From Bacteroidales bacterium (GTDB lineage Bacteria; Bacteroidota; Bacteroidia; Bacteroidales; P3), in assembly GCA_017480225.1 (NCBI GenBank), contig JAFVBB010000007.1, positions 1-64,000 on the forward strand: a DNA stretch of 64,000 bases. The letters run 5' to 3'. Within the stretch, counting starts at the first letter, position 1. Each line of letters starts with the position of its first letter. Position numbers and translations under genes: made by a program. Positions 1,405 through 57,441 of this stretch are shown here, in pieces. The notes below the pieces were generated by a model, which searched no databases, had not been told where the DNA came from, and saw only the letters and a list, made by a program, of their open reading frames with translations.

Positions 1405-1507
1405 CCGTCTGTTCTTCGATTGTTCTCCGATTGTTCTTCGATTGTTCTTCGATTTTGTATCGGAGAACAATCGAAGAACAATCGGAGAACAATCGAAAAA
1501 CAGGCGG
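1405..1507 (+). repeat. 103-bp hairpin element, copy 1
   Basis: First of seven members of one repeat family. The 49-nt left arm (1405-1453) starts CCGTCTG and continues as four 11-nt units of form TGTTCTYCGAT. A 5-nt loop (TTTGT) and a 49-nt right arm follow. The right arm differs at a few sites: CCGCCTG at its outer end, TTTTTCGAT in the first unit and CCGAT in the innermost unit. A leader ending in TCAATATCAAGG lies on its left. The copy sits in the 420-bp gap between the 3' end of aroB and the start of smpB; I see no other gene or RNA in that gap. Open frames through it are by-products of the 11-nt period. Confidence 0.95.
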
Positions 1508-1643
1508 CTTCGACACGCGGCAGAGGCGTGGCGCGCCGCGTCCGCATTATCCTTGTATTGCCCGGCAGAAGGGAGAAGACGGCTGTTGCCGCGAAGCCGT
1601 TTGCGTATCGGTGGGCAGGGTGGGGTGTGTTGTTGTGTGGCTG

Positions 1644-2708
1644 CTAATTCAGCGGAGTCGGCTTGCTTGCGTTGAGCATGGCGTCGCGCACCTCGTTGTC
1701 GTCAACGTTCACGTCAATCATTGCCTCTCCTATGCCTCGCAGCAGCACGCACCGTAGTGAGCCGTCGTGGTTCTTTTTGTCGTGATGCATCAGCGGCAGC
1801 ATGGCCTCGATGTCGCGAAGCGAGTGCCGCGGTAGCTCCATCTTGCCGCCAACCCACTGCAAGTATGTGTTGTACACGTCGACAGGCAGCCCGCACTTGC
1901 GCACCGAGAGGTACATCGCAACCAGCATCCCTGCCCCCACGGCCAGTCCGTGCTCCAGGCCATGGTGAAGCTCGATGGCGTGGCCGAAGGTGTGGCCGAG
2001 GTTCAGAATGTGGCGCACGTCCGTGTCGTGGGGGTCGGCGGCCACGATGCGCCTTTTCAGCCTGGCCACCTCGACAATCTCGCCGTGCCCTGGCGTGCCG
2101 CAGCGTAGCAGACGGTCGTAGAGGCCGGGGTCGCACACAGCCGCCGTCTTCACCATCTCCATCTCGCCGCAGGCCAGCTGCCGGGCGTCGAGCGAGGCGC
2201 AGAAGGCCGACTCGATGACTGTGGCCACCGGCGGATAGAAGTGGCCTACGCTGTTCTTCACTCCGCCGAAGTCGATAGCCGTCTTGCCGCCGATGGCTGC
2301 GTCGGTCATTGCAAGCAACGTGCTTGGAACCAGCAGGTGGCGGATGCCGCGCATATAGCCTGCCGCCACGAACCCGCCCAGGTCGCACACCGCGCCGCCG
2401 CCCAGGCACACCAACGCATGGCTGCGGTCGGCGCCCCCTTCTATCAACGTCTGCCACACCTGTGCCGCCACCTCGAGACTTTTGCACTCCTCGCCCGTGG
2501 GCACCTCGATGAATTCGGCACTTTCCAGTGCGTCGACGCCGGCCACCAGCTGCGGCAGGCAATGGTTGAAGCTGTTCTCGTCCACGAGAATGGTGTAGCG
2601 CGTGCCTCTCCACTCGTCGCCGCGAAGCTCGCGTGCCAGCGAGGCAAGGCCTCCGGTAAGTAGTTTGCCCTGTTTCATAACGCCCCAGCCAACGGGCATC
2701 GTCCCCAT
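1644..2708 (-). CDS. aroB: 3-dehydroquinate synthase AroB
   Basis: Converts DAHP to 3-dehydroquinate, the second step of the shikimate pathway, using NAD and a divalent metal. The 354-residue protein has the NAD-binding GGGAVCDLGGF (residues 103-113), the core segment DAAIGGKTAID (136-146), and metal ligands expected at E184, H239 (NLGHTFGHAIE) and H253. Length is normal for the family. Alternative starts are the ATGs at codons 4 and 11; none has a strong ribosome-binding site, so the true start is uncertain by up to 10 codons. It is divergent from rlhA, with 54 bp between the starts. Confidence 0.95.
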   Translation of the reverse strand: MGTMPVGWGVMKQGKLLTGGLASLARELRGDEWRGTRYTILVDENSFNHCLPQLVAGVDALESAEFIEVPTGEECKSLEVAAQVWQTLIEGGADRSHALVCLGGGAVCDLGGFVAAGYMRGIRHLLVPSTLLAMTDAAIGGKTAIDFGGVKNSVGHFYPPVATVIESAFCASLDARQLACGEMEMVKTAAVCDPGLYDRLLRCGTPGHGEIVEVARLKRRIVAADPHDTDVRHILNLGHTFGHAIELHHGLEHGLAVGAGMLVAMYLSVRKCGLPVDVYNTYLQWVGGKMELPRHSLRDIEAMLPLMHHDKKNHDGSLRCVLLRGIGEAMIDVNVDDNEVRDAMLNASKPTPLN

Positions 2709-2762
2709 TTTATTGCCTTTCCGCGCAATATTCAGTCTTTTGGCGCCGTTCTTGATTATGGT

Positions 2763-4580
2763 ATGAAACTCGAATTACTATCTCCGGCCAAGAACCTTGA
2801 CTTCGGCAAGGAGGCAATAAACCATGGGGCCGACGCTGTCTACATCGGTGCCCCGGCCTTCGGCGCGCGGGCTGCGGCCACCAACAGCATTGCCGACATA
2901 GAGGCTCTTGTCAGGTATGCTCATCTGTTTGGTTCCAAGGTTTTTGCTACTGTCAATACGATACTCTTCGACGACGAGGTTGAGCCCGCCGTGACCATGA
3001 TTCGCAGGCTGTGCGACGCGGGCGTGGATGCGCTGATTGTGCAGGATATGGGTCTGCTCGAGTGCGATCTGCCGCCGGTGGAGCTGCACGCCAGCACCCA
3101 GTGCCACAACAGCGATGCCTCCAGGGTGGCCTTCCTCGGCAAGGCTGGCTTCCGGCGCGTGATATTGGCGCGTGAGACCTCGCTTGAGCAGATGCGCGCC
3201 ATCAGGCGGGCCACTGCCGTTGACCTTGAGGCATTCGTGCACGGCGCGCTGTGTGTGAGCTACAGCGGACAGTGTTACATGAGCCAGTACCTTGCCGGAC
3301 GCAGCGGCAACCGCGGATGCTGCTCGCAGCCTTGCCGCAGTTCGTACGACCTGCTGGGTGAGGGTGGCCGGGTATTGCTAAAGAACCGCCACCTGCTGTC
3401 GCTCAAGGATTTCAACGCTTCGGCGCACCTTGCCGCCATGGCCGGGGCTGGAATAAGTTCGTTCAAGATAGAGGGCAGGCTGAAGGACCTGGCCTATGTG
3501 AAGAACATCACGGCGCATTACCGCCGTCTGCTCGACGGTCTCATGGGCGACGACTACAGCCGGGCGTCGAGCGGACGCTGCACTTTCTTCTTCACCCCCG
3601 ACCAGGAGCGCACCTTCAACAGGGGCTACACCGACTATTTCCTGCGTGGACGGCAGCCGATGGCCTCGCTCGCCACCCAAAAGTCGATAGGCAAGCCCAT
3701 AGGAAGCGTCGTTGCCGTGGGTAGGGGCACCGTGACGGTTGGCGGCGACGAGCCGCTGGCTGCTGGCGACGGGCTTTGCTTCTTCGATGGCGACGGCTCG
3801 CTGCGGGGCTTTTCGGTCAACGAGGTGCACGGACGCGTCGTCACGCCAAACGCCATGCCGTCAATCAGGCAGGGCACCCCCCTGTGGCGCAACAACGACA
3901 GGTGTTTCGAGCGCCAGCTTGAGGGGCGTTCCGCCGAAAGGCGCGTCGCCGTCAACCTTCTGTTCAGTCGTGTGGAGGGCGGCTTTGCTCTGGAGATGAC
4001 CGACGAGGACGGCGTCCGTGCCGAGTGCCGCGTCGAGGCTGCACCGACGCAGGCCGAGAACCCGGAGCGGGCGTCGGCCATGGTGGTGAAGCAGCTGTCG
4101 AAGCTTGGAGGCACTCCCTTCGCCGCCCGCTCGGTGGTCGACGCCACAGGGGGGCACTTCTTCCTGCCAGTGTCGACGCTCAACGAGCTTCGCAGGCGGG
4201 CTGCGGACGAGCTGGCACGCCTGCGTGTGGAGCATTTCCGCCCTGCGCCCGCACCGCTTGAGCCGCAGCAGGCAGTCTACCCCGATGTCGACTACCGCGC
4301 CAACGTGGTGAACGCGCTGGCCGAGCGCTTCTATCGCCGCCATGGCGCTGCGGTGACCGAGCGTGGTGTGGAGCAGACCGCCAGCTACGACGGCAAGGCT
4401 CTCATGACCACAAAGTACTGCCTGCGCTACGAGCTTGGCTGCTGCCTGCGTGGCAAGTGCCATTTCCAGCCCGATGTCGACATTGCCCCAAGTGAGAGCC
4501 TCATGCTCCGCAACAACGGGCGCCTCTTCCGGCTCGACTTCGACTGCAGCCAGTGCATCATGCGCGTGCTGCCGGGCTGA
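2763..4580 (+). CDS. rlhA: RlhA-type U32 family protein, 23S rRNA cytidine hydroxylase
   Basis: Member of the U32 'peptidase' family whose E. coli relative RlhA makes 5-hydroxycytidine at 23S rRNA C2501. The 605-residue protein matches the RlhA layout: GADAVYIGAPAFGAR near the start, the segment VDALIVQDMGLLE, FVHGALCVSYSGQC, the cysteine cluster NRGCCSQPCR, then FKIEGRLKDLAYVKNIT. The C-terminal half resembles the collagenase-like extension and ends in a second cysteine group (GCCLRGKC and DCSQCIMRV), expected to help hold an iron-sulfur cluster. Family membership is very clear. The exact rRNA target is inferred from E. coli and not shown by the sequence. Confidence 0.9.
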   Translation: MKLELLSPAKNLDFGKEAINHGADAVYIGAPAFGARAAATNSIADIEALVRYAHLFGSKVFATVNTILFDDEVEPAVTMIRRLCDAGVDALIVQDMGLLECDLPPVELHASTQCHNSDASRVAFLGKAGFRRVILARETSLEQMRAIRRATAVDLEAFVHGALCVSYSGQCYMSQYLAGRSGNRGCCSQPCRSSYDLLGEGGRVLLKNRHLLSLKDFNASAHLAAMAGAGISSFKIEGRLKDLAYVKNITAHYRRLLDGLMGDDYSRASSGRCTFFFTPDQERTFNRGYTDYFLRGRQPMASLATQKSIGKPIGSVVAVGRGTVTVGGDEPLAAGDGLCFFDGDGSLRGFSVNEVHGRVVTPNAMPSIRQGTPLWRNNDRCFERQLEGRSAERRVAVNLLFSRVEGGFALEMTDEDGVRAECRVEAAPTQAENPERASAMVVKQLSKLGGTPFAARSVVDATGGHFFLPVSTLNELRRRAADELARLRVEHFRPAPAPLEPQQAVYPDVDYRANVVNALAERFYRRHGAAVTERGVEQTASYDGKALMTTKYCLRYELGCCLRGKCHFQPDVDIAPSESLMLRNNGRLFRLDFDCSQCIMRVLPG

Positions 4581-4699
4581 CCCCCTTCCCCTTACTCCTT
4601 TCAATGGCCGTAGCGCATACGGCCTGCCTTGTTGTGCCGCGCGCTGCGTGTAGAGTCGTTGTCGGCACTGCCGTGCTGCCTGTCGTGACAGAGCCTGCG

Positions 4700-4802
4700 C
4701 TGTCTGTTTTTCGATTGTTCTCCGATTGTTCTTCGATTGTTCTCCGATACAAAATCGAAGAACAATCGAAGAACAATCGGAGAACAATCGAAGAACAGAC
4801 GG
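4700..4802 (-). repeat. 103-bp hairpin element, copy 2
   Basis: Same design as copy 1 in the opposite orientation: the invariant arm is on the right (4754-4802, ending AACAGACGG), with the leader TGTTGACACGGAGTCAATGC beyond it. The left arm carries the TTTTTCGAT variant also seen in copies 1 and 3. The loop is ACAAA, the reverse complement of the copy 1 loop. It lies in the 470-bp gap between rlhA and the DUF6266-like gene. The rest of the gap is AT-rich, with a run of T near 4950, and holds no recognisable gene. Confidence 0.95.
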
Positions 4803-5050
4803 TGTTGACACGGAGTCAATGCGGCGTGCGGAGTTTGGCCGTGGAAAATTATTTTTGCCGTTTTCTGTCCCAATTCCGTTTTCTCCAAGTCGCTGTTTTG
4901 CAGTATCTGCTGTCTTCTATCTTCTTCTATTGTTCTTCTCTGCCTCTTCATTTTTTTTTTTGAATATGCGCAATATTTTCGTCACTGTGTCGTTTGCCAT
5001 TCGTGGCATTGGTTGCCGAAATATTCATCACGAAAAAACAGATTGACGAT

Positions 5051-5869
5051 ATGGCAGTGTTGAGCCAAAGTGCATTCGGGCAGTTCAGCGGCAGGGTTGG
5101 GACCGCCGTTGGCTATATGTGGAAGGGGAAGGCCTGTGTGAGGGTCTACCGCAAGGAGATAAACTATCCCAACACGCCGCACCAGCAGCGCCAGCGCGAC
5201 TGGTTTGTGGGAATGGTGCGTTTCGCCTCGAAGGCCACGGCGGCCTTGCGGCTGGGGTTGCGGCAGCGGGCAAGCGAGGCCGGCATGACTGAGGGCAACT
5301 GGTTCGTGAAGCAGAACAAACGCTGGTTTGGTGGTGGCGACACTCAAGGTGAGGTTGATTACCAGCGGCTTGTGCTTGCCAGCGGCCCGGCTGCCGATGT
5401 CTATTTCAAGACTCCCCGCTTCGAGGAGAACGAGACGGTGGTGGTGGAGTTCGAGAAGAACAGCCTGTCGCTACATGCGTCGGGTGCGGACAAGGTCTAT
5501 CTCTACGTCTATGCCCCTGGGCTGGGGCAGGGGATGCTCACCGCCCCAGCCGAGCGCCGCAGCAAGAGGCTGGCCGTGAGACTGCCCGAGGAGTGGGCAG
5601 GGCAGGAGGTGCACCTTTATGGCTTTGTTGTTGACCGGGAGGGGCGCTCATCCGACTCGACCTATATCGGTGTTGGGCGCGTCAATCACTATGAGGAACG
5701 TGGCCGCTATTTTCCTGTAAACAAGGGTTGGAAGGACTTTGTTGACATGGCCAGCGGTGTGTCGTCGAATGAGGACGTTACGGCAGACACTGCCTCGCAC
5801 CAACCCTCGCATGACGCTGCCGCGGCTCCCGCCAGGCACGACCTTTTCGCCGACATGCCGCCCGATTGA
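5051..5869 (+). CDS. DUF6266-like protein of unknown function
   Basis: A 272-residue protein without a signal peptide. The N-terminus (SQSAFGQFSGRVGTAVGYMW, then KGKACVRVYRKEI) resembles the Bacteroidota family DUF6266, in which a glycine-rich G-x-FSG-x-VG-x-VG stretch is followed by a WKG motif. The middle of the protein looks like beta-rich repeats, and the last 35 residues are Ala/Asp/His-rich and probably disordered. I chose the ATG at 5051; the upstream in-frame ATG at 4994 would add 19 residues before the conserved start. No function is known for the family, and the isolated position gives no clue. Confidence 0.65.
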   Translation: MAVLSQSAFGQFSGRVGTAVGYMWKGKACVRVYRKEINYPNTPHQQRQRDWFVGMVRFASKATAALRLGLRQRASEAGMTEGNWFVKQNKRWFGGGDTQGEVDYQRLVLASGPAADVYFKTPRFEENETVVVEFEKNSLSLHASGADKVYLYVYAPGLGQGMLTAPAERRSKRLAVRLPEEWAGQEVHLYGFVVDREGRSSDSTYIGVGRVNHYEERGRYFPVNKGWKDFVDMASGVSSNEDVTADTASHQPSHDAAAAPARHDLFADMPPD

Positions 5870-5964
5870 GCCGTTGGCCGTGTGACCGGTTGATGCCGGC
5901 CACGACCGGTGATGTGCTGACGGGCTTTGTGTGGTGGCAGCGTGGGCTGTCGCCGAAGAAATAT

Positions 5965-5995
5965 TTTGCCATGCGGCCGAATTAGTGTAACTTTG
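5965..5995 (+). promoter_or_regulatory. Bacteroides-type promoter for kal
   Basis: TTTG at 5965-5968 and TAACTTTG at 5988-5995 are separated by 19 bases, matching the Bacteroides -33/-7 consensus (TTTG, then TAnnTTTG). Transcription would begin about 100 bases before the kal ATG at 6097. Confidence 0.7.
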
Positions 5996-6096
5996 CTTTT
6001 GGAAAATGTGGCCCACTTGGAATGGCTATGGCTCTGCAATGAGTGTTAATACAGCGAGATAGCGCAATTATTCATCAAAAAATAAACATAGAGATT

Positions 6097-6486
6097 ATGG
6101 CAGTAAAATCAATGCTCCGCGTCCGTATGAGCGCCAAGGACGCACATTATGGCGGCAATCTTGTAGACGGTGCGCACATGCTTCACCTCTTTGGTGATGT
6201 GGCCACCGAGCTTCTCATCATTCAGGATGGCGACGAGGGCCTGTTCTGCGCCTACGACATGGTGGAGTTCAAGGCACCGGTCTACGCTGGTGACTACATC
6301 GAGGCCTATGGCGAGATTACCCACGTTGGCAACACCAGTCGCAAGATGAGTTTCGAGGCCTACAAGGTCATCAAGACGCGCCCCGACATCAGTGCGTCGG
6401 CAGCCGATGTGCTGGAGGAGAAGGTGCTTGTGTGCCGTGCCAGCGGCACTTGCGTCACCCCGAAGGAGTGCCAGCGAAATAAGTAA
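6097..6486 (+). CDS. kal: 3-aminobutyryl-CoA ammonia-lyase (hotdog fold)
   Basis: Expected to remove ammonia from L-3-aminobutyryl-CoA to give crotonyl-CoA, a late step of lysine fermentation to butyrate and acetate. The 129-residue hotdog protein has the family's opening ([19 protein letters not shown]) and the segment [19 protein letters not shown] chose the ATG at 6097 because the conserved sequence starts there; the longer frame from 6043 adds 18 unlikely residues. It has its own promoter and terminator, so it is a single-gene unit. The other lysine-fermentation genes (kamA, kamDE, kdd, kce) are not beside it; only a CoA-transferase alpha subunit appears, 16 kb away. Confidence 0.85.
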
Positions 6487-6504
6487 ACCTTGTTACAGAA
6501 AGCA

Positions 6505-6535
6505 CGAGGGGCGGCGCCTGCGGCGCCGCCCCTCG
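6505..6535. terminator. Bidirectional hairpin between kal and metG
   Basis: A 14-bp GC-rich stem (CGAGGGGCGGCGCC and its complement) with a 3-nt loop lies between the convergent stops of kal (6486) and metG (6543). The T tracts on either side are short. Confidence 0.75.
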
Positions 6536-6542
6536 TTGTGTT

Positions 6543-8609
6543 TCAGCCCACACTGCAGCCTGGTGCCACCAGGTCGCTTGGTTGCAGCAGCACGAGCCGT
6601 CCGTCCTTGTCCTCCGCGCTGAGTATCATCCCCTGGCTTTCCACGCCTTTCAGTTTGCGGGGCGGGAAGTTGGCAATGAAGCACACCTGCCTGCCCACCA
6701 GGGCTGCGGGGTCGGGGTAGTATTTTGCTATGCCGCTCACAATGGTGCGCTTGCCCATGCCGTCGTTGATGAGGAAGCGCAGGAGTTTGTCGGCTTTAGG
6801 CACTTTGGCGCACTCCTCGATGGTGCCTACGCGGATGTCCATGCGCCCGAAGTCGTCGATGGTGACGCTGGGCTTGACCTCCGCAGGCCTCCACGCGGCC
6901 TGCTCGTTCTGTTCCTTGGTGCGTGCCAGCCTGTCAACCTGCGCCTGTATGGCCGTGTCTTCAATCTTTTCGAACAGCAGTTCGGGGGTCGATGTGGTGT
7001 GCCCCTCGCGCAGAAGAGCCACGCTGCCTGCGTCGGTCCAACGTAGCGGCATCCCTTCCATGCACAGCATACGGCGCATTTTGGTGGCGGTGAATGGCAG
7101 GAACGGTTCGCAGAGTATTGCCAGGTTGGCACAAATCTGCAGAGAAAGGTTCATCACTGTGGCCGTGCGTGCGGGGTCGTTTTTGATGAGCTTCCACGGC
7201 TCGGTGTCGGTGAGGTACTTGTTGCCGAGGCGGGCCAGGTTCATCATTTCGCTCAGTGCCTCGCGGAAGCGGTAGGTCTCAATGGAGCGGCCAATGCGCT
7301 CCGGGTAGGTGGCAATCTCCTGCGCCAGCTCTTTCTCTTCACCGCCCATGTCGCCGATGGCAGGCACGGCACCGCCGTAGAACTTTTGCGTCAACACCAG
7401 TGTTCGGTTGACGAAGTTGCCGAGGATGGCCACCAGCTCGCTGTTGTTCTTCAGTTGGAAGTCCTTCCAGGTGAAGTCGTTGTCTTTGGTTTCGGGGGTG
7501 TTGGAGCACAGTGTGTAACGCAACACATCCTGCTTGCCGGGGAAGTCGGCAAGGTATTCGTGCGCCCAGACTGCCCAGTTGCGCGAGGTGCTGATCTTGT
7601 CGCCCTCGAGGTTGAGGAACTCGTTGGCGGGCACATTGGCGGGCAGTATGTAGCTGCCGTCGGCGTGGAGCATCGACGGGAAGATGATGCAGTGGAAGAC
7701 GATATTGTCCTTTCCGATGAAATGCACCAGCTTGGTGTCGTCGGCTTTCCACCAGCGCTCCCAGTCGTCGCCTTTGAGTTGCTTGGTGAAACTGATGTAG
7801 CCAATCGGAGCGTCGAACCACACGTATAGCACCTTGCCGTCGGCGCCCTCGACGGGAACCTTCACTCCCCATTCGAGGTCGCGTGTCACGGCGCGCGGCT
7901 GAAGCCCGGCGTCAATCCACGACTTGCATTGCCCGTAGACATTCACCTTCCAGTCGCCCTTGTGGCCTTCCAGTATCCACTGCCGCAGCCAGGGCTCGTC
8001 TTTGTCGAGCGGAAGGAACCAGTGTTTTGTGGTTTTAAGCACCGGTTTTGAGCCGCTGAGCGCGCTTTTCGGGTTGATAAGGTCGGTCGCAGCCAGCGAA
8101 GTGCCGCAAGCCTCGCATTGGTCGCCATAGGCGTGCTCGTTGCCGCAATGGGGGCATGTGCCGGTGATGTAGCGGTCGGCCAGGAACTGGCCCGCCTCTT
8201 CGTCGTAGTATTGCTCCGATTCTTTCTCGATGAATTTGCCTTCGTTGTACAGCTTCGAGAAGTACTCCGACGCTGTGCGGTGGTGCTCTTCGCAGCTGGT
8301 ACGGCTGTAGATGTCAAACGATATACCCAGGCCGGCGAAACTCTCCTTGATGATGCTGTGGTAGCGATCCACAATGTCCTGCGGGGTGACGCCCTCTTTG
8401 CGCGCCTTGATGGTGATGGGCACTCCATGCTCGTCACTGCCGCCGATGAAGATGACGTCCTCGCCTTGCGCCCGCAGGTAGCGCACGTACACGTCTGCTG
8501 GCACATACACACCGGCCAGGTGGCCAATGTGTACAGGTCCGTTGGCGTAGGGGAGGGCCGAGGTCACTGTGTAGCGCCTGTATTTGCTGTCTTTCTCTGT
8601 GTATGTCAT
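6543..8609 (-). CDS. metG: Methionyl-tRNA synthetase
   Basis: Charges tRNA-Met with methionine. The 688-residue class I enzyme has the HIGH signature at residues 27-30, a zinc-binding [18 protein letters not shown] knuckle in the connective domain, the KMSKS-loop equivalent KISTSRN near residue 340, and the anticodon-binding helical domain. From about residue 585 a C-terminal EMAPII-like tRNA-binding OB domain follows ([20 protein letters not shown]). Length is normal for the long dimeric form. Its ATG lies 4 bases after the stop of the upstream lipoprotein gene, so the two are probably co-transcribed. Confidence 0.97.
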
Positions 8610-8613
8610 TGCG

Positions 8614-9654
8614 TTAGTCTTTGTAATGATATGTCACCGTCCCCTCTTCCTCGCTGAATGACGACACGGGGTAGCCGAGGTCGTCGTACTCATAGGTGAA
8701 GCTTGCCGACGAGGCAGGCAGCGGCATGGGGAACTCGAATGGGAAGTCGCCCATGAAAGTGGGCACGATGATGGCCACGCTCATGGCAGACCTGCTTGTT
8801 TCCGACCGTACATTGTTGGCACACAGGACGGCGGGTGAGAGTTTATAAAGCAGGCCATGAGTGGGATTGGTCTTGTCGTCGTAGGTGTAGTCGGCCGTGT
8901 CGTTCAGTGTGACGTTCAGCGCGAGCCTCGTGGAGTCGGGCATCATGTCGGCCAGTGCAGCGTAGTCGCCGAGCAGTTGGCCAAGGTCGATCAGGTTGCG
9001 CAAGGCACCCAGTGTGACGTGTGATTCAATGCCGACCTTCAGTACGCGACGCGCCACGTTCTCGCCGTGCCAGTCGAGCGTGGCTGCCATGTCCGCGCTT
9101 TGCACGTCGAGCATTGCCAACGCGTCCTCCAGGCCAGTGTCACCTGCCGGCCCCAGTTCGCCTGAGGCCATCTCCATGAGCCACGCCAGCGACTCTTTGT
9201 CAATGGTTGCGGTGGCTTTCGTAATGTGGCCTTTGTCGTCGCTGGTCACGTTCAGGTCGAGCATTTGCTCGCCGTAGGCAGCCAGGCTCACGCGGGCCAG
9301 CCCCGCAGCATTGTACTGCAACTCTGCGTCGCGACTGATGCCGTCGTCGGTCATCCTTACCTTCACCACGCGCGATTTGTCGTCGGTGACGAAAAAGTAG
9401 ACTTCGTCGTAGCCGCCGCACTGGTCGTCGGCCACGATGGCTTCCAGGTTGTCGCCGTCCCACATCCAGCGTTGCGTCACCCCGTCGCGACCGGCGGTGT
9501 AGTCAATGTGCCTTTCCGGGTGGTACACCCCGGCTGTGACGGAGGCTGTATGCCCTGGCCCCTCGGGGTTTTTGCCCTCAGTGCTGTTCTTGCTGCACGC
9601 GGTCAAAGCCAGCGCCGTGGCTGCGCAGCAGAGGATAAGGACTGTGCGTTTCAT
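8614..9654 (-). CDS. Lipoprotein of unknown function
   Basis: A 346-residue predicted lipoprotein with a signal peptide and lipobox LTAC (Cys20). The body contains strands of the type [23 protein letters not shown] (positions about 51-73) and, at the C-terminus, [19 protein letters not shown]. These resemble the YD-type beta strands of Bacteroidota lipoproteins such as the DUF4595 group, but I cannot assign a family with confidence. It is tightly linked to metG (4 bp) and follows the DUF5606 gene by 9 bp, so it sits inside a housekeeping operon. It is probably anchored in the cell envelope facing the periplasm. Confidence 0.7.
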
Positions 9655-9663
9655 CGTGTCGCC

Positions 9664-12799: not shown

Positions 12800-12902
12800 C
12801 CGCCTGTTTTTCGATTGATGTCCGATTGTTCTTCGATTGTTCTCCGATACTAAATCGAAGAACAATCGAAGAACAATCGGAGAACAATCGAAGAACAGAC
12901 GG
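12800..12902 (-). repeat. 103-bp hairpin element, copy 3
   Basis: The invariant arm is on the right (12854-12902) and its leader (TGTTGACATTGCCTTGATGC and beyond, to about 12950) lies outside it. The left arm has TTTTTCGAT in the first unit and the TGATGT variant before the second, which is also found in copies 4 and 7. The loop is ACTAA. It lies in the 292-bp gap between the end of lpxK and the promoter of pyrK. Confidence 0.95.
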
Positions 12903-13006
12903 TGTTGACATTGCCTTGATGCTGTCTTCGTCTGAATATCAATAAGATACAGTGTTGTCTTGCTGTAACTTATTTGTATGCAATGTGTTGTGTGGGTGCT
13001 TGGGGG

Positions 13007-24512: not shown

Positions 24513-24819
24513 ATCGTTGCTCCTTTCTTTTTGGTTGTTTCTTTTCTGCTGCAAAAGTACACACAAATTGTGAGGGAAATTCCTAAAGCCGCACATATTT
24601 TTCCGCACACTGCCTGTTTGTGGTGTGCAACACTTTGTGTGGTAGTGGTTTGTGTGGCTTGCCGGCTCTCTGCTCCACGGCCGATGCTGTATCTGGCATA
24701 AAAGAGTTGGTAACGCCGGACAACCAGTGTGTTGATGGCATATGAGGAGGTTTTTGCCCTCTCTGCTTTCGTAACTGCCTCATTCATAGCGTCAACAAGG
24801 CGCTGGGTCTATGTCAGGG

Positions 24820-24922
24820 CCGTCTGTTCTTCGATTGTTCTCCGATTGTTCTTCGATTGTTCTTCGATTTTGTATCGGAGAACAATCGAAGAACAATCGC
24901 ACATCAATCGAAGAACGGGCGG
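24820..24922 (+). repeat. 103-bp hairpin element, copy 4
   Basis: The invariant arm is on the left (24820-24868), with a leader AACAAGGCGCTGGGTCTATG before it. The loop is TTTGT. The right arm has a GCGAT unit and the TGATGT variant (CACATCAATCG on this strand) and ends GGGCGG. It lies in the 444-bp gap between the start of the Ser-rich gene and the 3' end of the TfoX-like gene. The rest of this gap shows a -7-like box for the Ser-rich gene (24552-24559, minus strand) and nothing else that I can name. Confidence 0.95.
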
Positions 24923-31320: not shown

Positions 31321-31418
31321 CCTGCTGTTTGCATGATTTTTGGCGGCTCTTCTTGGTCAAGGGCTGCCTTAAGCGTGGGTCTGTCCGCGCTGTGGACATG
31401 GTCAACACCGTGTCAAGG

Positions 31419-31521
31419 CCGTCTGTTCTTCGATTGTTCTCCGATTGTTCTTCGATTGTTCTTCGATATTAAATCGAAGAACAATCGAAGAACAATCGGA
31501 GAACAATCGAAGAACAGACGG
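31419..31521 (-). repeat. 103-bp hairpin element, copy 5 (perfect palindrome arms)
   Basis: The two 49-nt arms (31419-31467 and 31473-31521) are exact reverse complements around an ATTAA loop. Both arms are of the invariant type. The better leader is on the right (TGTTGATATGGACTTGATGC). On the left a second copy of the leader edge (GTCAACACCG, 31401-31410) precedes GTGTCAAGG. It lies in the 390-bp gap between the convergent 3' ends of folB and radC. The flanking DNA on both sides holds nothing else that I recognise. Confidence 0.95.
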
Positions 31522-31710
31522 TGTTGATATGGACTTGATGCCTTTTGTGTGCTGATGATGAATGGTTTAATGGCGCTTTGCGGTGTGGGTTGGACTTCTG
31601 TTGGCGCAATGTGGTTGGTTATCAGGCGCTACAATGAGTTGTGCCTGTTGGCGGTTTGCGTGCCGGCCGGGCTGCGAGTGTGTGGATGACGCTCTTCTTC
31701 TGTGCTGTGT

Positions 31711-46722: not shown

Positions 46723-46864
46723 GTTTCCTTCAGCACGATGCCCGCACGTGCAGAAATCTTCGCCGGAGAACTCTCTCTTTGTGTTGGATGACAATGTGTT
46801 ATGAATTATAAGTGCCGGAATGTGTTGAATTACAGCCTGGAAGGGCATTGGGGCAATGTCAGGG

Positions 46865-46967
46865 TCGTCTGTTCTTCGATTGTTCTCCGATTGTTCTTCG
46901 ATTGTTCTTCGATATTAAATCGAAGAACAATCGAAGAACAATCGGAGAACAATCGAAGAACAGACGG
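46865..46967 (+). repeat. 103-bp hairpin element, copy 6
   Basis: The arms differ at one position only (TCGTCTG at the left outer end against CCGTCTG), around an ATTAA loop. Leader-like sequence is present on both sides: AAGGGCATTGGGGCAATGTC on the left, extending to about 46825, and TGTTGACACGGACC on the right. It lies in the 544-bp gap between the HIT gene and the choice-of-anchor L gene. The remainder of that gap holds the HIT terminator (46698-46722), a -7-like TAGTTTTG at 47162-47169 and AT-rich DNA. Confidence 0.95.
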
Positions 46968-48965: not shown

Positions 48966-48972
48966 CCACTAA

Positions 48973-51900: not shown

Positions 51901-54900
51901 AGCCTCAGCCAGACCACGCAGCTCTGCTGGGACCGCAAGAGCCTCTACCCCTACAACACCACCTTCCCCTACGTCGACAGTTACGCCGCCGGCTACGACG
52001 ACAACCGCTCCCTCTACATGGACTACTACGGAAGCAGCCTCATCCTGCCCGAACTCAGCAACCCGATAGAGCAGCTGCAGCTGTCGGCCTATGTGCGCAA
52101 GTCCTATGAGAGCACCTCCACTGTAAGCCTCGAAGTTGGAGCCTGCACCGATCCGGCTGACACCAGCACCTATGTTGTCATCAACAGCGTCGAGGTCCCC
52201 AGCAATGAGTTCACCCTGGTCGAGCTTCCTCTCGACAAGCTTGGCGCGGTCGATGGCCGCATCTTCATCCGTGGCGCTGTGGGTGGCGCAATCAACTTCT
52301 ACCTCGACAGCCTTGCTATCGACCTCATCCCCGCCTGCCGCTCCATCAAGTCGGCAGCCTACGTGAACTTCAACCACAACACCGTCACGCTCGACATCGA
52401 CGACGACGTTGCGCGCGAGGGCTACATCGTGTACTACAACACTTCCGATGACTTTGCCAGCGCCACGCCGGTCAGCACCACCTCCAAGCAGCCCGTAATC
52501 ACTGGCCTGACCCCTGCCTCAACTTACTACATGTGGGTTGTTGCCACCTGCGGCAGCGACACCCAGTCGAAGTTGCTGAAGCTCGGCTCTGTCCGCACCA
52601 TGTGCGAGCCCATCGAGGTGAGCGACGACAACCTTTACACCAACGACATCGAGGAGGCAAGCAGCATCAGTTGCTTCACCTACCTCCCCAGCGGCAGCAA
52701 CAAGTGGGTCGTGGGTCAACCGACCACCTACACCTCCGGCTATGTGCACAGCGGTGCCGTGGCGTTCTCCTTCATCCCCAACAACAACAAGGAGGCCTAC
52801 GTCTTCCTGCCTGCCTTCGACTTCACCGGCATGACCACCGAGGCCGACTTTGGCTTCTACCGCTACAGCGCCCATAGTGAGTGGTCCAGCGAGAGCGCGT
52901 CGCGCCTTAGGGTGTACTACCGCACCAGCCCCGACGCCGACTGGACGTTCATCAAGGAGTGCAACCCCGATGTGGTCAACACCTGGTCGCACGAGCTGAT
53001 TACCCTTCCCGGTTCGCAGGGTGCCGCCTTCTACCAGTTGCGCCTGGGCGGTGTCGGCAAGGAGACCAGCACCGGTTACATGTATGTCGACGACCTCGAA
53101 ATACGCCGCTACAGCGACTGTCGCGCGCCCGAGGCTGTCATGGTCAGTGACGTCACCGAGCGCTCGGCCAAGGCCTCGTGGAACGCTGGCGAGAACACCA
53201 ACTTCCGCGTGCAGTTCCGCAACGAGCTCGACTGGAGCTGGACTACCTACAACGTCGAGAATGAGGAAAGCGTCAGCCTGAACCCGCTTGAGCATTCGAG
53301 CACCTACCAGGTGCGCATTGCCTCGCGCTGCGCCGACGGCGTAGTGAGCGAGTTCTCGCCCGTCACCACCTTCCAGACCCCGTTCTGCGACAGCGTCTTC
53401 ACCATTACATCTTATGCGCAGGATGCTGAGGCTGGCACCTTCACCTTGAGTGCCAATAACAACGGCTCCTACTACGAGGTCGTCATTCCGGCCGAGGAAC
53501 TTGACAGCAGCGTTCCCATCGAGCGCCTCTCCTTCACCATTGCCGAGCCGCTGCCATACTCGATCTACCTCAACCTCTACATTAGCCCGGCGATCTCCAG
53601 TTCCTTCGCCACCTTCAAGATCGACTACAACAGCAACACCTCCGTGTGGGGCAGTCTCGATTCGGGCTATGTGGGTGATGTGGTTGTCGAGTTCGAGAAC
53701 CCCATCCAGCTCGAGGCCGGCAAGGATCTGGTCATAGGCATGGCGTTGCAGTCTGACTACTATGAGTACGACTACGACACCTACGAATACCTCTACACCC
53801 AGCTCGACCATGTGTTTGCCTCTCACAAGTCTGCCACCAGTGTGGCCAGGTACTATGTCTCCGACCAAGACTATCTCTCCATCCCCAGCATCATCAACAT
53901 GCCCAGCAGCATTGTTCCCTCCACCGACGACATCATCGACTTCTCGCTGGCAGGGTGCAATACCGTCTGCTGGGAGCCTGTCGTGCGCAGCACCTCCTCC
54001 ACCGCCAACAGCATCACTGTCGACTGGGTCAAGGAGAAGTCTGTCGTCGAGCTTGCCATCAAGCGTGCCGACGAGGCTGCCTTCGGAGCGCCAGTCAGCG
54101 TGGCCAGCGGCCATGTCTACATCTTCTCCAACCTGATGCCGCAGACCGAGTATGACCTGCGCGTCCGTGCCAACTGCTCCAACTCCGGCTCGGGCTACAC
54201 CGAGTGGGCCGAGTTCAGCGTTGCCACCGACACCGCTTGCTCCATACCCTCCGCGCTGCAGGTCACTGCCGTCAGCGCCCACTCCGCCACCCTCACCTGG
54301 AATGCCGGCGAGATGCACAGCAACCACTGGGACATCCACGTGTGGAACGACGGCTTCGACTCCATCTACGACGCCAAGAGCAACCCCGCCACCATCGGCG
54401 GCTTGCTGCCGGGCAACGACTACCGCGTGCAGATGCGCTCCTACTGCGGCGTTGACGACCACGTGGTGAGCGAGTGGAGCGAGGTGCGCCACATCCAGAA
54501 CACCTGCGCACCCGTCACCGGTGTCAAGGCCGAGCTCAGTGGCGACGACGTCACCGTGAGCTGGGTGGCTGGCGACCGCAACAAGAAGTGGCTCGTGGCC
54601 TACGGCCTCAAGGACTTCACCGGCGCCGAGGCCATTGAGTACCGCACCGTCACCGAGAACCACGTCACCTTCGAGGGACTCAAGCGCGGCAACACCTACT
54701 CGTTCCGCGTTCTGGCCTACTGCGACGACGACTGGACCAGCGAATGGAGCGCCAATGCCAACGTGCAGATGGTGGGCATCGACGAGGTCGAGGGCACTCA
54801 GGTCACCCTGCAGCCCAACCCCGCCACCGGCTTTGTCACCCTCGGCCTTGAGGGCGCCGAAGGTCGCGCCACGGTGACCATCCTCACTGTCGACGGCCGC

Positions 54901-55029
54901 CAGGTGAGCCAGTTCCCCACCGACCGGAGCTCCCTCCGCATCGACCTCGACCAGTATGCCGCGGGCACCTACTTCGTCCGCGTGCAGACCGAGGGCTGGA
55001 CTGCCACCCGCAAGCTTGTGGTCAAGTAG
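48973..55029 (+). CDS. 2018-residue FN3-repeat surface protein with T9SS sorting domain
   Basis: A giant secreted protein. A signal peptide (KKILICLALLPLALAFA) is followed by a cysteine-bounded head (residues about 28-125) that opens with the MEDTYGDGWNGNTVTI motif. I count about nine FN3-like modules, most beginning with a Cys-Pro type boundary (near residues 130, 377, 595, 877, 1115, 1378, 1670, 1752 and 1838). Between them lie jelly-roll modules of the MAM/cleaved-adhesin type and a CUB-like one near 470-590. The last 80 residues are a type A sorting domain (TVTILTVDGRQVSQF, then LDQYAAGTYFVRVQTEG, ending RKLVVK). A role in adhesion or polymer binding is likely from the architecture. ATG at 48985 is an alternative start. 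Confidence 0.87.
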   Translation: MKTDMKKILICLALLPLALAFASKAEAQCADCTLYIEMEDTYGDGWNGNTVTISQNGVQVGSFTLNDGYSGTSSLDVCKADGSLTINYGGGMYPDENSFVLTDQNGNVLAQCSNGSSWSGAVEAAPCSNCLTPQLSLTSVTETTASVSWEESGMASSWLYRLGDGDWTSTTSTSLDFTDLAPGVAYTLQVKAQCDDDEVSSTAQFVFATLCAKSTLPLTQDFEYFDNESKMPMCWEALEVFDSYGEAYPSVSNYVETHSGGNALVFMPYYANNSVASPVLDVEASKLEVILYVNSSSYGNLQVGYIPAESSSIDDFVLVDVVQVSNDNLFHQYKVSFADVDYSGDFRVVLHMDASPSYSTYSIDDVCFRVASSCPEVTGLAANGLFGSGNVALSWGGDGTNFEVAYGPIGFNPDAADASIMQVDDAHNCVISGLDDASLYDFYVRSVCGSEKSYWCEAVSGVRPNTYWLDQPSDTISGCDFYIVDNGGPAGDYKQTSLVKVVVYPEEEGKALRITGSYAGSYYSYVTSPLIIYDGDSANAPVGVQYTYGSANINFRSHGPVTLTFSAANGSSFYVDEGFDLHVECVEPSYCSEIADFKVVEAAVDEATFSWTPSEMPDMKYVIELVDMLDPDSTVYSYDIDPELTTATIAGLEERTTYRATIHSVCAAGNGFNYSTTFVTRCGQLGEMPVGDPETSSTNMPTNAGYNYSIVQTIYSRSEFDHAADTVYGIVVNMQQVVDKDIELSIYMDVTEDSNYVSSGYYSSGYISMGPSQLVYNGTRKMTVGDNEIVFDKPWLSPDTSKHIVITYLSHIDGASYNNTQRGRVFTTDDGRLRSITGSGSNQITPGSGYNYSTSTNQALALVFLEPCGRVLCSAPTVTVEEVSTSNISISWVPGFDETAWNVEYRIEGEEDWTMFSESTSQTSADLTGLAQGTWYQIRVTSLCGEKSHGRTVRVATDCGVFSAPFVESFVNFDASSLSQTTQLCWDRKSLYPYNTTFPYVDSYAAGYDDNRSLYMDYYGSSLILPELSNPIEQLQLSAYVRKSYESTSTVSLEVGACTDPADTSTYVVINSVEVPSNEFTLVELPLDKLGAVDGRIFIRGAVGGAINFYLDSLAIDLIPACRSIKSAAYVNFNHNTVTLDIDDDVAREGYIVYYNTSDDFASATPVSTTSKQPVITGLTPASTYYMWVVATCGSDTQSKLLKLGSVRTMCEPIEVSDDNLYTNDIEEASSISCFTYLPSGSNKWVVGQPTTYTSGYVHSGAVAFSFIPNNNKEAYVFLPAFDFTGMTTEADFGFYRYSAHSEWSSESASRLRVYYRTSPDADWTFIKECNPDVVNTWSHELITLPGSQGAAFYQLRLGGVGKETSTGYMYVDDLEIRRYSDCRAPEAVMVSDVTERSAKASWNAGENTNFRVQFRNELDWSWTTYNVENEESVSLNPLEHSSTYQVRIASRCADGVVSEFSPVTTFQTPFCDSVFTITSYAQDAEAGTFTLSANNNGSYYEVVIPAEELDSSVPIERLSFTIAEPLPYSIYLNLYISPAISSSFATFKIDYNSNTSVWGSLDSGYVGDVVVEFENPIQLEAGKDLVIGMALQSDYYEYDYDTYEYLYTQLDHVFASHKSATSVARYYVSDQDYLSIPSIINMPSSIVPSTDDIIDFSLAGCNTVCWEPVVRSTSSTANSITVDWVKEKSVVELAIKRADEAAFGAPVSVASGHVYIFSNLMPQTEYDLRVRANCSNSGSGYTEWAEFSVATDTACSIPSALQVTAVSAHSATLTWNAGEMHSNHWDIHVWNDGFDSIYDAKSNPATIGGLLPGNDYRVQMRSYCGVDDHVVSEWSEVRHIQNTCAPVTGVKAELSGDDVTVSWVAGDRNKKWLVAYGLKDFTGAEAIEYRTVTENHVTFEGLKRGNTYSFRVLAYCDDDWTSEWSANANVQMVGIDEVEGTQVTLQPNPATGFVTLGLEGAEGRATVTILTVDGRQVSQFPTDRSSLRIDLDQYAAGTYFVRVQTEGWTATRKLVVK

Positions 55030-55058
55030 TCTTGCTCAGGAACACACACGCAACCTTC

Positions 55059-55096
55059 AGCGAGCGCCCCGCACAGTGTCGGGGCGCTCGCTTTTT
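55059..55096 (+). terminator. Terminator after the FN3 gene
   Basis: A 13-bp stem (AGCGAGCGCCCCG and complement) with an 8-nt loop is followed by TTTTTG. It closes the choice-of-anchor L and FN3 gene pair. Confidence 0.87.
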
Positions 55097-55228
55097 GTTG
55101 GCAAAGTGAGCGTTGGCCTGTGCAGACTGCGGCCATTCGGCAAAAAAGTTGTATCTTTGCACTGGATGATGCCGTGCGTGCCTGCTTGCAACGCATTGGC
55201 AACCAGCCATTGAATACTAACAACGACA

Positions 55229-56374
55229 GTGATGAGACGCTTTTTGGCACTGGTCTGCGCCCTGGTGGCTACGCTCACGGCCTCGGCCTGGGACTTCAGC
55301 GAGACTGCCCCCACCGGGCAGACGCTCTACTTTGAACGCACTTCTGCCACCACCGCCAAGGTGGTGGCGCCCGACGGCTACAGCTGGGATGGCTACACCA
55401 CTCCGGCCGGCGCCCTCACCATTCCGCAGCAGGCAGGCGGCTGCGCCGTCACCGCGATTGACCGCCTCGCGTTTGTCGACTGCCAGAAGCTGGTGTCTGT
55501 CCAGGTGCCGGGCTCGGTGCTCACGGTGGGTATGCGCGCCTTCGCCCTCGACACGCTGCTCGAATCGGTCGTGATGGCCGAGGGCGTTCAGCAGATAGAG
55601 TCTATGGCCTTCTCCGGATGCTCGCGCCTTGCCTACGTCGACCTGCCGTCCACGTTGGTGCGCCTGGGCAACGCGGCCTTCAACTCGACAGCCTTCTACA
55701 TGGATTCCTCCAACTGGACGGCCTGCTACACGCTGGCCCTCGACGGCTGGGTGCTGCGCGAGGGCGACAAGTGGGAAGGCCCCGTCGCGGTCGGCGAGGG
55801 TGTGGTGGGCATTGCCAACAACGCCTTCTTCGGCTGTGCGGCTGTCGACGTGGTCGAGCTGCCGTCCACGCTGCGCATCATTGGCGACGAGGCTTTCCGC
55901 CAGTGCCCCGCGCTCGACACGCTGCGCCTTGCCGCCGTCGAGCCTCCCAAGCTGGGGAGTGACGTGTTCGTGGGCACGCCCGTGTCGGTGGTCGAGGTGC
56001 CGTGCCATTCGCTTGCCCTCTACCAGGCTGCCGCCGGATGGTCGGCCATGAACATTGTCGAGGTGGGCTGTGTGGGCGACACGGTGGCCGATACGGTTAG
56101 CCCCTTGCCGCCTGTGCCTCCGCTCCCACCGCTGCCGCCCGTTGTCGGCATAGACGAGGCTGGGGCCGAGGGCCTGACAATCCGTGCCACATCCTGCGGG
56201 GTGGCCGTCTGCGGGCTCGAGGAGGGCATGGCGACCGTCTACGACCTGCGTGGCCGACGCGTGGCCGCCGTCGCGGGTGGCCGGGGCGAGGTGGAGGTGG
56301 CTTTGCCTGCCGCAGGCATCTACCTGCTGGCCACGCCCTCCGGGCGCGCCTGCAAGCTGGCCTACTTCAAGTAG
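55229..56374 (+). CDS. BspA-like leucine-rich repeat protein with T9SS sorting domain
   Basis: A 381-residue secreted protein. After a signal peptide (RRFLALVCALVATLTASA) come BspA-type LRR_5 repeats of about 23 residues (LVSVQVPGSVLTVGMRAFAL, LAYVDLPSTLVRLGNAAF, VDVVELPSTLRIIGDEAF) up to about residue 265. A Pro-rich linker (PLPPVPPLPPLPPVVG) leads to a C-terminal sorting domain (ATVYDLRGRRVAAV, then LPAAGIYLLATPSG, ending CKLAYFK). BspA-type proteins bind host matrix or other bacteria. The start could also be the second ATG at 55232. The 3' end overlaps the convergent LysE gene by 13 bp. A -7-like TATCTTTG lies at 55152-55159. Confidence 0.87.
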   Translation: MMRRFLALVCALVATLTASAWDFSETAPTGQTLYFERTSATTAKVVAPDGYSWDGYTTPAGALTIPQQAGGCAVTAIDRLAFVDCQKLVSVQVPGSVLTVGMRAFALDTLLESVVMAEGVQQIESMAFSGCSRLAYVDLPSTLVRLGNAAFNSTAFYMDSSNWTACYTLALDGWVLREGDKWEGPVAVGEGVVGIANNAFFGCAAVDVVELPSTLRIIGDEAFRQCPALDTLRLAAVEPPKLGSDVFVGTPVSVVEVPCHSLALYQAAAGWSAMNIVEVGCVGDTVADTVSPLPPVPPLPPLPPVVGIDEAGAEGLTIRATSCGVAVCGLEEGMATVYDLRGRRVAAVAGGRGEVEVALPAAGIYLLATPSGRACKLAYFK

Positions 56375-57111
56375 AGCGTGTCACCGCGCCGCGCGTTGCT
56401 GTCGTGGGTTATGGTGTTGTGGAAACGCTGTATCAGCTGCGCCGCCCCCTCGCTGCTTTCGGGTTTTTGCAGCTCCGGGTGCGAGCGGTAGACTATCATT
56501 GACACTATCAGGAACACGCCCACGCCAATCAGCACCGCGCCTACACCCCGGCTGATGAGGCGCATCAGCGAGTCTGACATCACCTTCTGCAGCAGCGACG
56601 CCAGGCGGCACTTCAGTATGCCCACGCCCAGCTCCGTGAGCAACAGGCTGATGAAGAAAGCCCACCGCTCGCCCGCCGTCAGGCCCATCTCGGCCGAAAG
56701 GAAGGTCACCAGCGATATCCAGTAGAGCCACACCGTGGGGTTGAACAGGTTGAGGGCGAAGCCCTGCACGGCCAGTTCGCGGCCGCGCGGCACCTTGTCG
56801 AACACCAGCTTCGTGCCCTCGCGCCGCGCGGGCTTGCGCAGCAGCGACATCACGCCCAGCGCAATCACTGCCGAGCCGCCGATCACTGCCACGTAGGGAT
56901 TGCGCACAATGGAGGTCATTTCGACGTTTTTCAGCAATGTCAGCATGAGGCTCACGATGAGGATGTCGCTCGAATTGACCCCCACCTCGAAAGCCACGCC
57001 TTTGCGGAAGCCGTAGTTTATGCTGTTCTGTATCAGGCCAAAGAAAGCTGGGCCGAAGCCGAAAAACAGCGACAGCGCCAATCCGCAGATTATGCCGACC
57101 AGTATCTCCAT
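56362..57111 (-). CDS. LysE/RhtB family exporter
   Basis: A 249-residue inner-membrane protein of the LysE-type amino-acid exporter family. It has six predicted membrane segments (about residues 3-27, 40-62, 70-90, 118-142, 148-170 and 188-210). The family features are FFGFGPAFFGLIQNSINYGF near the start and ALNLFNPTVWLYWISLVTF in the middle. The substrate is not readable. The C-terminal 35 residues are hydrophilic. It overlaps the BspA-like gene tail to tail. Confidence 0.85.
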   Translation of the reverse strand: MEILVGIICGLALSLFFGFGPAFFGLIQNSINYGFRKGVAFEVGVNSSDILIVSLMLTLLKNVEMTSIVRNPYVAVIGGSAVIALGVMSLLRKPARREGTKLVFDKVPRGRELAVQGFALNLFNPTVWLYWISLVTFLSAEMGLTAGERWAFFISLLLTELGVGILKCRLASLLQKVMSDSLMRLISRGVGAVLIGVGVFLIVSMIVYRSHPELQKPESSEGAAQLIQRFHNTITHDSNARRGDTLYLK

Positions 57112-57130
57112 TCAGCAAAATATTGCGCGG

Positions 57131-57163
57131 CAAAATTACACAAAAAAAACGTAACGCGTCAAA
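57131..57163 (-). promoter_or_regulatory. Bacteroides-type promoter for the LysE gene
   Basis: On the minus strand TAATTTTG (57138-57131) is preceded after 21 bases by TTTG (57163-57160), a full match to the consensus, 19 bases before the LysE ATG. Confidence 0.7.
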
Positions 57164-57338
57164 TTATTTGTGCCACTGTCTTTTCCAGTCTTCCGCAACC
57201 ATGCCTCTACGGATTACTACTTGGCTGGATGTTAAAAATTTAACCCCTGCTAACTTGCGCATTAATAGGTAATTATGAGTGCTATTCTTTGTAATGTATT
57301 GATTTATAGACTAACAAGGCGTTAAGTCCGTATCAACA

Positions 57339-57441
57339 CCGTCTGTTCTTCGATTGTTCTCCGATTGTTCTTCGATTGTTCTTCGATACAAAATCGAAGA
57401 ACAATCGAAGAACAATCGGACATCAATCGAAGAACAAGCGG
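57339..57441 (+). repeat. 103-bp hairpin element, copy 7
   Basis: The invariant arm is on the left (57339-57387). Its leader is the best preserved of all copies: it runs from about 57291 (TGTAATGTATTGATTTATAG) to GTTAAGTCCGTATCAACA. The loop is ACAAA. The right arm has the TGATGT variant and ends AAGCGG. This copy lies in the 455-bp gap between two divergent starts (LysE and porin), so it cannot be a transcription terminator for either neighbour. The gap also holds the LysE promoter and a -7-like TATTTTTG for the porin gene at 57529-57536. Confidence 0.95.

Follow-up and report, generated by a model that had tools for sequence, protein, structure and literature searches.

In the parC-type centromere of plasmid R1, arrays of 11-bp direct repeats are bound by the partition protein ParR. 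BrickBuilt of Porphyromonas gingivalis is presented, in the part of its account available, as an intergenic tandem minisatellite with a leader and a tail that occurs in 19 copies, carries IS5-like terminal repeats, and shows short target duplications in three of its four complete copies (PMC4596501). The GTAG- and CGTC-tagged repetitive extragenic palindromes (REPs) are 20-40 bp in length, and the CGTC type has CGTC at one end and a loop of 4-5 bp, according to the available passages of the source (PMC3733652). According to the accessible portion of a survey of DNA structure, tandem repeats of 6-11 bp are over-represented between genes in two Methanococcus species and Natrialba magadii, and less so in several other genomes (PMC4060949); RepRanger was also compared from an excerpt (PMC12306157). 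The present report concerns a 64,000-nucleotide stretch of a Bacteroidales bacterium (assembly GCA_017480225.1, contig JAFVBB010000007.1, positions 1 to 64,000; hereafter the window), in which a sequence-only reading had noticed seven intergenic hairpins of 103 bp built from 11-nucleotide (nt) units. Plausibly, although short of probably, these hairpins are one form of a dispersed non-coding two-part element comprising a conserved anchor and an exchangeable, helix-phased 11-bp array to which protein would bind. Published short interspersed palindromes and minisatellites are described for single species or single families, as far as the available portions of the sources go; here, many members of one genus carry a repeat of one helical turn, often beside a conserved site, with a unit that differs by species. 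This opens the question of what keeps the period and the anchor during sequence turnover, be it a fast-changing DNA-binding protein, a copying machine, or gene conversion.

The sequence-only reading knew of no named family with this structure, and the literature searched likewise gave no account of these hairpin or array elements. The direct 11-bp repeats, one helical turn each, may be likened to those of plasmid R1 parC, although here more than a hundred chromosomal loci are involved and an anchor is added. BrickBuilt is arguably nearest in kind; BrickBuilt and MITE464/PgRS, both of P. gingivalis, resemble the element in being intergenic, multi-copy, species-limited Bacteroidetes minisatellites beside flanking modules, as described in the extract available (PMC4596501). 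By contrast, BrickBuilt and PgRS have 23- and 41-nt units in the same extract, whereas here the unit is 11 bp, its arrays are inverted as hairpins, and the anchor, a leader-like module, lies on one side only (PMC4596501). Furthermore, the anchor is common to arrays of unrelated sequence in several species and no duplications were found, unlike what the extract describes for BrickBuilt. With the CGTC- and GTAG-tagged REPs, as far as their source is available, the hairpins share the form of a high-copy intergenic palindrome, their arms starting with CCGTC and enclosing a 5-nt loop (PMC3733652). Both their length and their internal arrays are nevertheless a misfit to the REPs of that source (PMC3733652): each 49-bp arm of the 103-bp palindrome is itself a direct-repeat array of 11-nt units, as the sequence-only reading had pointed out. 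The genome moreover has no Y1 transposase, and hairpins of other units in congeners are built on other sequences.

Anatomy, copy number and setting of the hairpins

All seven hairpins were recovered at the positions first noticed (Table 1), each comprising 49-bp arms around a 5-bp loop, and the arm held to be invariant is present in all seven, as CCGTC followed by TGTTCTTCGAT, TGTTCTCCGAT, TGTTCTTCGAT, and TGTTCTTCGAT. Other parts of the first description required amendment. The replacement of the last T by C in partner arms was seen but is incomplete as an account of their variation, since the copies at 12800, 24820, and 57339 have a unit TGATGTCCGAT or TGATGTGCGAT; the exact length of 103 bp holds for the window copies, whereas in the wider family 10 of 60 copies have other unit counts (3+4, 4+3, or 4+5 units, against 4+4 in the other 50); and the 103-bp hairpins, although real, are not the full extent of the feature, the anchor flank being absent from that description. 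In order along the window, the arms of the seven copies differ from each other at 3, 3, 5, 6, 0, 1, and 4 positions, and the 11-bp arrays were also detected independently by Tandem Repeats Finder. Base pairing extends beyond CCGTC into one further degenerate 11-mer on both sides, and inverted outer units are present around the hairpins. Elsewhere in the window, no further two-unit match with at most 2 mismatches was found, and 19 isolated 11-mers with 1-2 mismatches are scattered through it.

The genome from which the window derives (2.05 Mb in 22 contigs, 97.6% complete; the window lies on contig C18) contains 143 places that match the central pattern with at most 3 mismatches, with none for a reversed-pattern control; because this pattern is a palindrome, the search returned 143 forward and 143 reverse matches. 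The genome-wide count that had been proposed as a check therefore gave 143 centres, with relatives elsewhere, and since the copies are neither limited to the seven nor without relatives, the finding of a hairpin family stands. Thirty-two extra stretches of this genome (592 kb) together with the window form a sample of 656 kb that holds 60 of the 143 copies, at a density above that of the genome because the stretches were picked to contain listed copies. In this sample, 526 genes were called, covering 86.7% of the DNA, with approximate gene ends because a simple hexamer gene finder was used, and none of the 60 hairpin copies overlaps a predicted gene. Apart from one copy at a stretch edge, 23 copies lie in divergent, 29 in co-directional, and 7 in convergent gaps (n = 59), compared with 47, 77, and 14 gaps of at least 150 bp totaling 23.8, 35.3, and 7.8 kb, respectively; no clear preference for a gap type is apparent because the copies follow gap length about proportionally.

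Anchor sites, a second array family and unequal arms

Alignment of the flanks revealed that many copies have common sequence past the hairpin on one side. This anchor, found on one flank of 33 of the 60 copies with the side picked from flank columns at least 22 bp away from the repeat units, comprises paired 21-bp sites of about YTGRTTTWCARTNNNTTAYRR, laid out as CTG-N5-CAG, approximately four bases, and TTAYR; the two sites are inverted and separated by approximately 12 bases, and the array starts approximately 30-35 bp from the nearer site. In several copies, a model of the anchor flank built from sequence only (R1) hits both strands of the dyad region; it also recovers partial anchors beside further copies (Table 1). 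The anchor faces a gene start in 22 of the 33 copies, the other 11 being end-facing. At 12 bits or more, 106 matches to the anchor site were found in the 656 kb, 85 of them within 230 nt of an array centre, including the flanks of the hairpin family (the first family) used in training the site model; the remainder are intergenic elsewhere (10) or inside genes (11). When the threshold is raised to 16 bits, 52 matches are found in this genome, and 49 of them lie close to arrays, whose surroundings make up 7.3% of the DNA (flanks used in training are counted); in congeners, which contributed no training sequence, 10 of 34 lie within 170 nt of arrays (2.4% of the DNA). The density of 12-bit matches in other families is 27.2 per 100 kb (reversed-sequence control, 13.8) versus 16.2 (control, 1.5) in the window's genome, which is clearly richer only at 16 bits or more, at 7.9 versus 1.9 per 100 kb (control, 0.0). 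The bare anchor site is not confined to the genus because these other families carry matches without any array.

The same genome carries a second array family. Twelve further period-11 arrays with the unit GAGTAGGAGWT (score at least 14) were found in the 656 kb, all of them intergenic, and an anchor of at least 12 bits lies within 130 nt of 10 of the 12, these arrays being outside the training of the anchor model, for which the first family only was used. By eye, they follow the plan of the first family, in which a loosely matching inverted arm is followed by well-matched direct units, then approximately 15 nt of spacer and the anchor; in this one genome, then, the anchor accompanies two array families. 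Among 120 genomes of the genus, the two-unit pattern of the second family (at most 1 mismatch) is present in 31, with 62 matches in the window's genome and 103 in G048. The first-family pattern at the same stringency is present in 8 of the 120, with 2 to 701 matches (the window's genome, 701; G136, 245; G119, 74; G149, 53; G132, 11; G124, 8; G146, 2; G012, 2), and in none of 40 genomes of other families. Contigs C9, C19, and C20 of G136 start within approximately 20 bases of hairpin arms, as do contigs C36, C37, C45, C53, and C57 of G163, which is taken as the same genome as G136; because contigs start there, the elements probably break short-read assemblies, and counts in such genomes are low estimates.

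The anchor-side arm is the stricter of the two. In the anchor-bearing 4+4 copies, it equals the consensus in 24 of 30, with 0.27 substitutions per 44 nt, whereas the distal arm does so in 5 of 30, with 2.53 substitutions per 44 nt, a comparison in which the final choice of side used flanks only but the seed came from an arm-based orientation that could bias the result. A GATGT-type variant unit is found in 16 of 33 distal arms and in none of 33 anchor-side arms. The flanks have a mean distance of 0.54 over 72 nt among copies. The copies have common ancestry, and either selection or rewriting acts on the anchor-side arm, because this arm stays constant while the flanks drifted far; copying or homogenising is likely since the unit order and the variant unit are common to several copies.

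A possible, if unlikely, alternative for the hairpins is a non-autonomous element akin to a miniature inverted-repeat transposable element (MITE), in which the anchor and the outer palindrome would be ends for a trans-acting transposase or recombinase, a few masters would give rise to the copies, and genic insertions would be lost. It would account for the shared unit order and variant unit, for the lack of a clear gene-context bias, and for the patchy spread of the unit (8 of 120 genus genomes), and it is in line with four dispersed hairpins of the unit TTACGGTAGTA in further stretches of G012, which are compact multi-copy palindromes with outer flanks that look unrelated by eye. However, no target-site duplication rose above a mismatched-pair null (33 and 27 copies; 112,000 and 70,000 offset/length tests), and no Y1 transposase (PF01797) was found in the 97.6% complete genome, other transposase families not having been searched genome-wide; as a control, PF01797 has matches in 5 of 14 known genomes. 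For each of two sets of flanking proteins (115 proteins in all; 94 and 88 families matched), the 25 Pfam families with the most matches include neither a transposase nor a gene type common to the copy neighbors, and diverged flanks (0.54) beside a constant anchor-side arm are unlike dead copies. Membership of the system of REPs and REP-associated tyrosine transposases (RAYT), including REP doublets forming hairpins (REPIN), was rejected because no Y1 transposase is present, the palindrome moreover being 103 bp rather than 20-40 bp.

Promoter-type TAnnTTTG motifs occur beyond the anchor at variable distance, at 14 places over the 22 start-facing copies and at none in the 11 end-facing copies, and the exact motifs start at least 101 bases from the repeat units. 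The anchor was therefore rejected as a promoter, and the element is unlike a promoter itself because these motifs are outside the anchor and variably spaced. Around copy 7, a sigma-70/terminator scan gave 0 promoter-like and 1 terminator-like signals (0.7 and 1.0 in shuffles). The distance of these motifs, beyond the anchor, also argues against a structured RNA, in which the hairpin would be transcribed in leaders or trailers and would act via its 49-bp double helix as an RNase III substrate or as a stability or termination element; this explanation is quite improbable. The fold predicted for copy 1 with its flank is indeed very stable on both strands (-100.3 and -89.7 kcal/mol; z, -12.4 and -15.0), and 36 of the 80 arm-to-arm mismatches are wobble-compatible when read from the anchor, and another 8 are A-C. 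Nevertheless, 30 of the 36 wobble cases come from two shared positions, so that the asymmetry was rejected as evidence for RNA; a further 36 of the 80 mismatches break pairing on both strands, no Rfam match reached the gathering score in the window, and most array-bearing congener stretches have no hairpin.

Period-11 arrays with changing units in congeners and beyond

One stretch was taken from each of 40 congeners, around the orthologue of a gene neighboring hairpin 7 (710 kb in total). At a score of at least 20, there are 23 runs of period 11 and 13 of period 7, against 0 for each of the periods 10, 12, and 13; period 11 is in excess across congeners while the units differ, as in a phased array. 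Hairpins of 11-bp units with other sequences occur in 4 of the 40 stretches (G025, ATRTCAACGAT; G053, TGTACGSTATW; G026, ATRTGTGCTAT; and G012, GTTCRACTTGA, which is short), and relatives with the TGTTCTTCGAT unit (G119, G124, G132, G136, and G149) have hairpins of drifted units. After low-complexity filtering and at a score of at least 18, period-11 arrays reach 3.8 per 100 kb in the 40 congener stretches and 5.6 per 100 kb in 20 stretches (11 of 20 with one) of five congeners preselected for arrays, whereas 20 other families of the order yielded none in 261 kb, a rough contrast given unmatched loci and some very short stretches. Arrays are commoner than hairpins in congeners (19 versus 4 of the 40 stretches).

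The anchor is also associated with these other units. Of 73 congener arrays, 3 had too short a flank to be scored; among the remaining 70, 27 have an anchor match of at least 12 bits no farther than 130 nt away. The corresponding rates are 2.0% for shuffled flanks (n = 350) and 7.1% for AT-rich windows of the same genomes (n = 450). The model had been trained on flanks of the window's genome alone, and many of the best cases come from G048. The full R1 model gave weak matches only on congener DNA, the best E-values being 0.042 and 0.0042 in two scans. In 7 of 40 congeners, a period-11 array (score at least 14) lies in the region of up to 700 nt (less at contig ends) upstream of the gene orthologous to window gene 57567-58661, and all seven units are different; a conserved position is not supported because this fraction is no greater than an estimated background of approximately 24% of gaps with an array (73 arrays per 1.44 Mb; 138 gaps of at least 150 bp per 656 kb). 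The G048 array at this locus has a unit of the second-family type and lies between the anchor and the right-hand gene as in the window, a match of arrangement that is suggestive only. Only three hairpin gaps are syntenic with a relative: one holds an array of period 11 with a score of 16, another an array of period 7 with a score of 20, and the third no more than a row of degenerate 11-mers recognized by eye (score 7); among gaps of at least 150 bp without a hairpin, an array of some period (score at least 14) was seen in 5 of 26 comparisons, the cases being few.

Three exact units in a row also occur in at least 18 stretches in named metagenome-assembled genomes (MAGs). Among the matches listed are Bacteroidales RGIG6769 (sheep rumen) and RUG737, taken, from their equal match counts, as the same genomes as G119 and G136 and not as additional ones, together with Bacteroidales MAG Loc080925-6m, Limisphaerales palsa_1440, and Verrucomicrobia subdivision 3 Ki1-2-7m; Limisphaerales is a verrucomicrobial order. 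The loci inspected in the last three are tandem arrays, not hairpins, and no gene transfer is claimed for the Verrucomicrobia arrays because independent origin is possible. A phage or plasmid origin was rejected, as positions 31380-31560 of the window had no blastn match in phages and plasmids and no exact three-unit match was found in viral contigs.

The tandem arrays of the first-family unit in Verrucomicrobia, along with the period-7 arrays of congeners, would also be expected of neutral minisatellites, that is, 11-bp arrays born by slippage, with 49-bp arms that convert each other while the flanks drift. Correlations of flank distance are only weak, both with distance in the distal arm (r 0.11, permutation p 0.055) and with that in the loop (r 0.13, p 0.036), which is likewise in their favor. 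Such an origin is distinctly doubtful: it leaves unexplained both the anchor, which is common to two array families and lies beside congener arrays, and the weaker homogenisation of the distal arm.

The protein-binding reading and its weight

Three guesses came with the sequence-only reading: a mobile element, a structured RNA, and an array of protein-binding sites. Of these, binding sites are the best fit, since period 11 recurs while the unit changes, arrays outnumber hairpins in congeners, and the anchor-side arm is constrained; for mobility, no duplication and, within the searches made, no partner transposase was found, and RNA is less fitting, a pairing-breaking unit being present in 16 of 33 anchor-bearing copies. 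In this genome, the hairpin consists of the four-unit array next to the anchor, a short loop, and an inverted copy that is less strictly kept. In the proposed mechanism, the array would be a row of putative sites for a protein sitting once per helix turn, and the anchor may bind a second, conserved protein. The resulting nucleoprotein complex could serve a chromosomal job untied to one gene type, such as folding, insulation, or partition-like marking. New units might arise, and transposition-like copying or gene conversion might carry them from locus to locus within a genome, with the outcome that one or a few units would dominate in each species while the anchor and the period would be kept. 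Protein binding and the manner of unit spread are what we infer from the DNA; the 11-base spacing that related species keep under different repeat sequences is a hint of a DNA-binding or DNA-copying system not described so far.

Several observations weigh against binding by protein. The spread over gap types, approximately proportional to gap length, is as expected of a neutral insert; 27 of the 60 copies are without a clear anchor under the scoring used; and anchor sites at 12 bits are not special to the genus and turn up often in AT-rich DNA. Protein sites are usually less strictly conserved than the identity over 44 nt seen here, and homogenisation may account for part of this conservation, because the order T,C,T,T and the GATGT variant show copying. 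A conserved position at orthologous loci was dropped, and no binding protein was identified, no search for one having been made. A more elaborate and doubtful proposal places anchor sites with exchangeable 11-bp cassettes across the genus, where a trans-acting machine would copy the cassette to more than 100 intergenic loci and rewrite the anchor-side arm; the unit would be species-specific, the anchor machinery ancient, and the array recogniser or template fast-changing.

Table 1. Positions of hairpins, anchor flanks, and related repeats in and outside the window
Feature	Coordinates	Strand	Remarks
Hairpin copy 1	1405..1507	+	Anchor-side invariant arm 1405-1453, loop 1454-1458, distal arm 1459-1507; anchor at left
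Anchor flank, copy 1	1317..1409	+	Paired 21-bp sites and spacer; R1 64.5 bits; R1 training sequence
Hairpin copy 2	4700..4802	-	Invariant arm at right, 4754-4802
Flank, copy 2	4798-4827		R1 matches outer flank unit only; 12.7 bits, E 0.05
Hairpin copy 3	12800..12902	-	Invariant arm at right, 12854-12902; distal arm with TGATGTCCGAT unit
Anchor flank, copy 3	12898..12988	-	R1 59.9 bits; R1 training sequence
Hairpin copy 4	24820..24922	+	Distal arm with a TGATGTGCGAT unit
Partial anchor, copy 4	24765-24824		Weak R1 match; 14.6 bits, E 0.014
Hairpin copy 5	31419..31521	-	Both arms perfect; between convergent genes (folB, radC family)
Partial anchor flank, copy 5	31517..31568	-	R1 27.2 bits, E 1.6e-6; outside training set
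Hairpin copy 6	46865..46967	+	Arms differ at first base only; oriented by anchor flank
Anchor flank, copy 6	46778..46869	+	R1 55.4 bits; R1 training sequence
Hairpin copy 7	57339..57441	+	Between divergent genes; distal arm with TGATGTCCGAT unit
Anchor flank, copy 7	57253..57343	+	R1 57 bits; R1 training sequence
GAGTAGGAGWT arrays	L009 259-293, L009 13831-13872, L011 1062-1122, L012 18811-18865, and 8 more		Outside window
G119 repeat of ~180 bp	L175 16542-16598, L175 3330-3385, L177 1597-1649		Three copies
G053 second hairpin	L112 296-346, L113 18300-18394		Two copies
Congener period-7 arrays	L112 165-266, L114 2142-2178, L117 846-925, L123 1388-1468
Verrucomicrobial tandem arrays	L186 4893-4925, L193 1406-1504, L195 2269-2301		Unit ATCGAAGAACA

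Further repeats were noticed in the stretches compared. G119 has three copies of a repeat of approximately 180 bp (by eye) with degenerate AGTAAGAGAGG-type 11-mers and several anchor-like sites, and G053 has two copies of another hairpin with the 11-mer unit GTTCTTATATC. Period-7 arrays are many in congeners and some are inverted (AGCGGAA in G053), whereas none reaches a score of 18 in the 656-kb sample; the verrucomicrobial MAGs carry the tandem arrays given in Table 1. Proteins encoded next to the window hairpins include SmpB, an AroB-like protein, LpxK, FolB, and a RadC-family protein. An open frame of 55 codons at 60153-60320 of the window, recognized by eye, contains the motif CxxCxxCxxxCP twice and is apparently a small ferredoxin missed by the gene caller.

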